From contig JAAZUU010000012.1 in assembly GCA_018624035.1 (NCBI GenBank), positions 1 to 34,756 of the forward strand: a DNA stretch of 34,756 nucleotides, written 5' to 3'. The notes below the pieces were generated by a model. That model had not been told where the DNA came from, did not search any database, and saw only the letters and a list, made by a program, of their open reading frames with translations. Origin of the DNA: Rhodobiaceae bacterium (GTDB lineage Bacteria > Pseudomonadota > Alphaproteobacteria > Puniceispirillales > Puniceispirillaceae). Shown piece after piece: positions 28,639-29,300 of the stretch. Position 1 is the stretch's first letter; every line of letters starts with the position of its first letter. The position numbers and the translations under genes are program-made.

Positions 28639-28666
28639 TCTCTCCCTGCAGAGCAACCTGCAGACT

Positions 28667-28695
28667 GGCCCCGCGTTCCGGCGCGGGGCCTTTTT
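28667..28695 (+). terminator. Rho-independent terminator after nrdJ
   Basis: GGCCCCGCG-TTCCGG-CGCGGGGCC perfect 9-bp stem followed by TTTTT, 29 nt downstream of the nrdJ stop. Confidence 0.93.
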
Positions 28696-28807
28696 CTTTG
28701 ACGACCGGCCAACAGCATAAATTACTTTTCCGTTAACACGCCGCCCACAGTTGAGTACGATGATACTCCGTTAAGACCGGTATGCCTGTTGTGTCGCGCC
28801 GAACCTT

Positions 28808-29033
28808 CTGAAAACATTCGTCTTTTCAGGATGAAAGCCCCCCGATTTGCAAAGGTCGAGGGGGCTGGCTATGGTTTCTGCGTCATCACGCACGTATCCG
28901 CGAAAGCAACCCCTTGTCGGGTTGCTCGCTGAATAAAACACCCTTCCGGGAAATAAGCGGGACTCCGCTTTCGCGTAGTTGTGTGATGACCGGCCTGACG
29001 CCAGGCCGGCCGGGACCGTGCGGCGTGTTTTTT
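28808..29033 (+). other. Candidate structured non-coding RNA / cis-regulatory leader
   Basis: Perfect inverted repeats: CTGAAAA/TTTTCAG (28808/28823); AGCCCCC..GGGGGCT (28836/28860); GTCATCAC/GTGATGAC (28882/28983); CGCGAAAGC/GCTTTCGCG (28899/28967); AGCAACCC/GGGTTGCT (28905/28919); AAGCGG/CCGCTT (28955/28965); CCGGCCTG/CAGGCCGG (28990/29002); T6 run at 29028-29033. Strand not proven. Confidence 0.5.
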
Positions 29034-29069
29034 CCAAAGTTTGATTGATCACCCGCGAGGGAGGATGCC

Positions 29070-29300
29070 ATGCACCCTGCCAGATGCGCCATATGCATAC
29101 CCGTCATGGTGCTGCTTTGCGCCTGCGCGCAAAATCCGGCGTCACATGACGACATGACCGAACAATTCGGTTTCGGTGCGCTGGAGGGAGCAGATCTGCG
29201 GTCATTCCCGGATACACAGTTATTCGGGGACAGTATCGGTTGGCATCATGAGATGTTTGATCACAAGGCACTGCTTCGCTCCATAAGACCGCAGACATAA
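29070..29300 (+). CDS. Small putative lipoprotein, 76 aa, unknown function
   Basis: SD-like GGGAGG at 29058-29063, short signal sequence with lipobox-like CAC (MHPARCAICIPVMVLLCAC-AQNPAS). No family recognised. Confidence 0.5.
   Translation: MHPARCAICIPVMVLLCACAQNPASHDDMTEQFGFGALEGADLRSFPDTQLFGDSIGWHHEMFDHKALLRSIRPQT

Follow-up and report, generated by a model that had tools for sequence, protein, structure and literature searches.

The window analysed here is a 34,756-nt stretch of DNA from a Rhodobiaceae bacterium, in which an intergenic gap of about 370 nt follows nrdJ. The strong nrdJ terminator reported in the preliminary description was found by a terminator scan as a hairpin (28667-28690) with a U-run, and it separates the downstream element from nrdJ. 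Weak Rfam matches at 28640-28705 were discarded, being merely this terminator's resemblance to the terminators of small RNAs. The plus strand of the gap carries a sigma70-like promoter (28847-28875), composed of TTGCAA (28847-28852), a 17-nt spacer and TATGGT (28870-28875). At the far end of the gap, a Shine-Dalgarno sequence, GAGGGAGGA (29057-29065, plus strand), precedes a plus-strand ORF (29070-29300) encoding a 76-aa lipoprotein-like product with the lipobox LLCAC, our candidate for the regulated gene. Homologues of this ORF, with 34-55% identity, lie at the same site between nrdJ and RidA in three relatives, and a Pfam search with its product returned no match.

Between promoter and ORF lies a cluster of inverted repeats. 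All of those named previously are present where they had been placed, including an outer pair, GTCATCAC (28882-28889) with GTGATGAC (28983-28990), and an inner pair, CGCGAAAGC (28899-28907) with GCTTTCGCG (28967-28975), both on the plus strand. Their density, which had been thought to exceed chance, does so: the region 28875-29012 folds on the plus strand to -63.1 kcal/mol compared to a mean of -42.3 for shuffled sequences (z -5.8, with 0 of 200 shuffles as good). Folding both strands of the full 370-nt gap gave a z of -4.4 on the plus strand and -2.6 on the minus strand. A GC-rich hairpin followed by six Ts had also been described. The hairpin, CCGGCCTG-ACGC-CAGGCCGG (28990-29009, plus strand), hereafter P4, is found in both sequence and fold; however, it is not the sole pairing of its 5' arm, since GTCGGGTTG is an alternative partner. 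The T6 run (29028-29033) begins ~19 nt past the hairpin and was rejected as a terminator, as the terminator scan had no match there and the U-run is not retained in relatives. The true extent of the element is from the promoter (~28847) to the start codon at 29070.

Its predicted fold has four parts, all on the plus strand. The 5' arm of the first helix, P1 (28882-28907), is predicted to begin the transcript and pairs with 28967-28990; the TATGGT box ends 6 nt ahead of its first base. The hairpin P3 (28925-28961) consists of an outer stem (28925-28930/28956-28961) and an inner stem (28941-28943/28948-28950), both drawn from pair counts, around an internal loop that is conserved in the core consensus as AAUAnAACA / GGGRAAUA. 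P3 is followed by a segment that we call the guide (28962-28990), which is also the 3' arm of P1 and has two potential partners: the 5' end of the transcript, forming P1, or the region of the ribosome-binding site (RBS). Finally, a helix that we term Ppk joins a near-invariant 5' strand, GTCGGGTTG (28916-28924), to a 3' strand, CGGCCTGAC (28991-28999), that closes a pseudoknot (RNAalifold and pair counts). Ppk was absent from the inverted repeats listed in the preliminary description and was discovered in a consensus fold of 13 copies, in which a UGUCGGGUYG loop pairs with CRGCCYGAC directly 3' of the outer stem. As modelled, Ppk and the outer stem form an H-type pseudoknot. P4 uses the 3' strand of Ppk, and therefore the two helices are mutually exclusive; pairing of that strand with the following 25 nt holds across the class (z -10.6).

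A check for covariation at homologous loci, which had been suggested previously, revealed compensatory changes in P1, Ppk and P3. In six copies from the SAR116 clade, 95.8% of cells were paired and 14 pairs were changed on both sides, compared to 6.4 in shuffled alignments and 0-2 with slid partners. Eleven of these double changes fell among the 22 pairs of P1. For Ppk and P3, an alignment of 69 diverse copies had 98% paired cells and 134 double changes versus 40 when shuffled; this alignment was fitted to the model, and a 12-sequence MAFFT alignment agrees with it. P1 is unique in sequence in each copy yet complementary (permutation z 43, 96 copies). These comparisons indicate that the inverted repeats are real and belong to a plus-strand RNA structure under selection.

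We then estimated how widespread copies of the window type are. The window genome is of a SAR116-type lineage: the element is also found on a same-genus contig of SAR116 cluster bacterium MED-G06. Our model R1 detected it in 11 of 121 genomes of the order and 36 of 385 genomes of the class, with up to 7 copies per genome. An exact-core pattern scan, biased toward one subtype, retrieved 93 stretches in named genomes of Alpha- and Gammaproteobacteria, Acidobacteria, Gemmatimonadota, Binatota, Nitrospirales, Limisphaerales, a Chloroflexi bin and others. The copies come mostly from metagenome-assembled genomes (MAGs). Judging by isolate name, many of the genomes hit by the scan may be MAGs of marine-sponge symbionts, although only one title names a sponge. 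By these sequence matches, the family is multicopy and dispersed over several phyla. Neither a nucleotide search of a phage collection nor the pattern in viral contigs yielded a convincing match, possibly because the element is too poorly conserved for BLAST or an exact pattern to find it. In some genomes copies are paired: tandem leaders lie ~230 nt apart in G054 (L036, 4018-4338) and ~150 nt apart in G008 (L039, 1-234). The tandem pair of G054 sits between an MFS transporter and an SNase gene, and G043 has one copy between the same pair of genes. Two copies in Ca. Porisulfidus (L134, 3622-3928) face each other on opposite strands ~70 nt apart, an arrangement unfit for a simple leader in at least one of them.

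Copies lie mostly just ahead of an ORF, often one for a secreted protein or lipoprotein. Among 91 window-type copies, TANNNT clusters 10-13 nt and TTGAC 34-37 nt ahead of the first base of P1. By simple rules that required an ATG with a good Shine-Dalgarno sequence, no further than 110 nt away and opening an ORF of 60 aa or more, 59 of 121 copies had a downstream ORF, compared to 8 of 121 on the divergent side, and the median gap to that ORF was 40 nt. Simple heuristics assigned a lipobox-like motif to 34 of 94 downstream products and a hydrophobic N-terminus to 62 of 94, and Pfam domains among them included SNase secreted nucleases (6), TbpB-like proteins, GT25, outer-membrane barrels and thermolysin-type peptidases. 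Going by this sequence context, the window element is no free-standing gene: it is a 5' leader, linked to a promoter, that belongs to the ORF at 29070.

The preliminary description had matched the element by eye to no known RNA family, excluding tmRNA, SRP, RNase P, TPP and cobalamin motifs. Indeed, neither ARAGORN (tmRNA, tRNA) nor Rfam at its cut-offs identified any of these, and in an Infernal search no Rfam family reached its gathering cut-off. Below the cut-off of 53 bits, however, cmscan matched the window copy to sRNA-Xcc1 (RF02221) over the full length of the model (positions 1-87; 33.0 bits, E 5e-4), and three other window-type copies scored 39-43.5 bits. Conversely, model R2, built from our copies, recovered true RF02221 members (E 3e-9 to 8e-7). 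The sub-threshold match and this recovery make relatives of the two types, and the window element is thus, by sequence, a divergent homologue of sRNA-Xcc1. Of the earlier proposal of an undescribed structured RNA, the structure stands; the element is not an isolated intergenic RNA, as it leads ORF 29070, nor wholly undescribed, given its relative. In a sample of the phylum, RF02221 was found in 51 of 299 genomes, with up to 9 copies in one, and in 0 of 14 control genomes, whereas R2 matched 8 of the 299. Since R2 is less sensitive than RF02221, separate search models serve the two types best.

Both types share the Ppk helix (the outer helix), P3 with its AAUA-type internal loop, and a 5' leader position. 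They differ in that P1 is found only in the window type, the Xcc1 type having a short hairpin inside the outer helix instead. The third hairpin of sRNA-Xcc1 has no counterpart in the window fold, where that segment pairs upstream as P1. The genes downstream differ as well, encoding secreted proteins or lipoproteins for the window type and antirepressors, Rha and SymE for the Xcc1 type. An ORF with a Shine-Dalgarno sequence follows 47 of 68 Xcc1-type copies, versus 0 of 68 on the divergent side, with Rha, Bro-N, KilA-N and P22_AR_N antirepressor-type proteins and SymE toxins among the products. On public plasmids, the RNA match ends 43-45 nt ahead of annotated BRO and Rha genes, and a survey of integrons placed Xcc1 upstream of symE within integron cassettes (PMC12444791). 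What has been called an Xcc1 "sRNA" is probably the leader of an antirepressor, Rha or SymE gene.

The variable segment between P3 and Ppk, the guide, was compared with the RBS of the gene downstream. A version of this comparison based on duplex energy was confounded by base composition (negative control z -3.2) and was abandoned in favour of the longest Watson-Crick run, set against matched controls. The permutation tests treat copies as independent, without a tree, after k-mer removal of near-duplicates. For the Xcc1 type, the mean longest run between a guide and its own downstream RBS was 6.7 versus 5.4 when permuted (z 10.7), and runs of at least 7 occurred in 38 of 66 copies compared to 13% expected. 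Results were flat when the target was a coding region or when the neighbouring RNA segment replaced the guide, and the guide had no complementarity to the upstream side (z 0.2). Examples of guide and RBS are CUUGUUG:CAACAAG (L208), CUUACGU:ACGUAAG (L207), CUGUUUG:CAAACAG (L197) and CCUCUGUGUG:CACACAGAGG (L185). In the window type, where the guide is the 3' arm of P1, complementarity to the 5' end of the transcript dominates (z 43, runs of at least 7 in 84 of 96 copies) and that to the RBS region is weaker (z 7.7). Runs of at least 7 with the RBS region were found in 25 of 96 copies versus 6.4% expected and runs of at least 8 in 11 of the 96 versus 1.5% expected, with a flat coding-region control. 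Two paralogues from one genome (L058 and L060) have different P1 stems, each repeated at its own RBS. Guide-RBS pairing is long in L060, L070, L116 and L208. For the window copy itself, pairing of the guide with 29045-29070, which spans the Shine-Dalgarno sequence, was predicted at -23.6 kcal/mol, a value equalled by 7% of random windows; this is not significant and is suggestive only.

We consider it likely that the element is a cis-acting 5' leader RNA that controls how the lipoprotein gene at 29070 is translated. Transcription would start at P1, and the nascent RNA would form the core, consisting of P3 with its conserved internal loop and the Ppk pseudoknot. With the guide on the transcript's own 5' end, as P1, the RBS would be free and the gene ON; with the guide on the region around the Shine-Dalgarno sequence, the RBS would be blocked and the gene OFF. 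The core would probably read a signal, be it a metabolite, an ion or a protein, that tips the choice of the guide. Covariation supports the alternative pairings, and sequence comparison shows the core to be folded, with P1 and Ppk, places the element as a leader and reveals the class-wide complementarity of guide and RBS; from these we infer that the pairings compete and switch in the cell, which state prevails when, and that there is a signal. Two observations weigh against this reading: the guide-RBS duplex of the window copy is equalled by 7% of random windows, and only about a quarter of window-type copies have an RBS run of at least 7. A conserved core by itself does not prove a ligand.

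Other explanations need to be weighed against such a leader. One is a stand-alone trans-acting small RNA with an incidental downstream ORF, as published for sRNA-Xcc1, for which Northern blots and RACE gave a discrete product of ~88 nt (PMC2996969); this finding goes against a plain leader, unless the RNA is cut or ends early. Homologues of RF02221 in Xylella have been read as trans-acting, vesicle-carried regulators (PMC12189769), and in the window P4 could end a short transcript. We nevertheless find this explanation improbable, as an ORF with a Shine-Dalgarno sequence lies close by on the same strand in 59 of 121 and 47 of 68 copies of the two types (8 of 121 and 0 of 68 on the opposite side), no consistent terminator follows the element, and guides match the neighbouring RBS copy by copy with flat controls. 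This last match, seen in sequence, argues that action in cis is primary, to which the discrete Xcc1 RNA may add a role in trans.

A leader could also act without sensing, its stable 5' stem merely protecting or slowing the mRNA through stability or delayed translation. This is a serious rival, if an unlikely one: P1 starts at the predicted start site, is very stable and resembles known 5' protective stems, yet the letters of the P3 internal loop and Ppk are kept over several phyla far more than protection needs, and the guide has a second partner in the RBS. The multiple, dispersed copies and the presence of the relative Xcc1 in integron cassettes (PMC12444791) would suit a DNA-level element, such as a mobile repeat or an integron attC-like or recombination site. 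It is, however, very hard to reconcile with P1 letters that differ in every copy while pairing is retained, a promoter and RBS in fixed register, Ppk G-U pairs retained on one strand, and a better fold on the plus than on the minus strand.

The translational leader that we favour resembles translational riboswitches in its 5' position, conserved core, variable outer stem and pseudoknot, and in a putative alternative pairing that could mask the RBS, supported across the class but not significant in the window copy. The window element is, like riboswitches, a 5' leader whose structured core is conserved. Unlike them, the family's downstream genes have no common metabolic pathway and the putative RBS-masking strand is copy-specific. 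In the mRNA leaders of type I toxins (tisB, hok), upstream pairing masks the RBS. The family would share this masking with them, and its Xcc1-type copies lead, among other genes, that of the SymE toxin; however, its core is conserved over several phyla and its downstream genes are mostly not toxins. In the open-access literature subset that we searched, we found no described cis-acting class of this kind. We tentatively propose, at somewhat less than even confidence, a new multi-phylum riboswitch class in which the Ppk and P3 core senses a signal and a copy-specific guide picks the 5' end or the RBS. Secreted proteins would be under its control in marine and host-associated bacteria, as would antirepressor or SymE genes on mobile elements, and sRNA-Xcc1 would really be a cis-acting switch.

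Our reading as a leader joins a published "small RNA", sRNA-Xcc1, to a large group of cis-acting leaders with a testable guide-RBS rule. If it is true, RF02221 would need a revised annotation, as would target predictions based on action in trans, prophage and integron genes such as Rha, BRO, KilA-N and SymE would acquire a means of control, and screening could turn to an orphan core that may have a ligand.

Xcc1-type copies can be numerous within a genome. Five homologues in Xylella lie in a row ~380 nt apart (PMC12189769, Table 4), the spacing expected of units of a leader plus a short ORF. One genome, G760, has nine Xcc1-type leaders (L192, L212, L214-L215, L217-L220, L249), mostly before uncharacterised ORFs of ~64-101 aa. 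A recurrent terminator-like motif, CCGCACCCGTCAGACC-TGCGGTATTTTTGTGCC, was observed ~30-70 nt upstream of many Xcc1-type RNAs (L182-L211).
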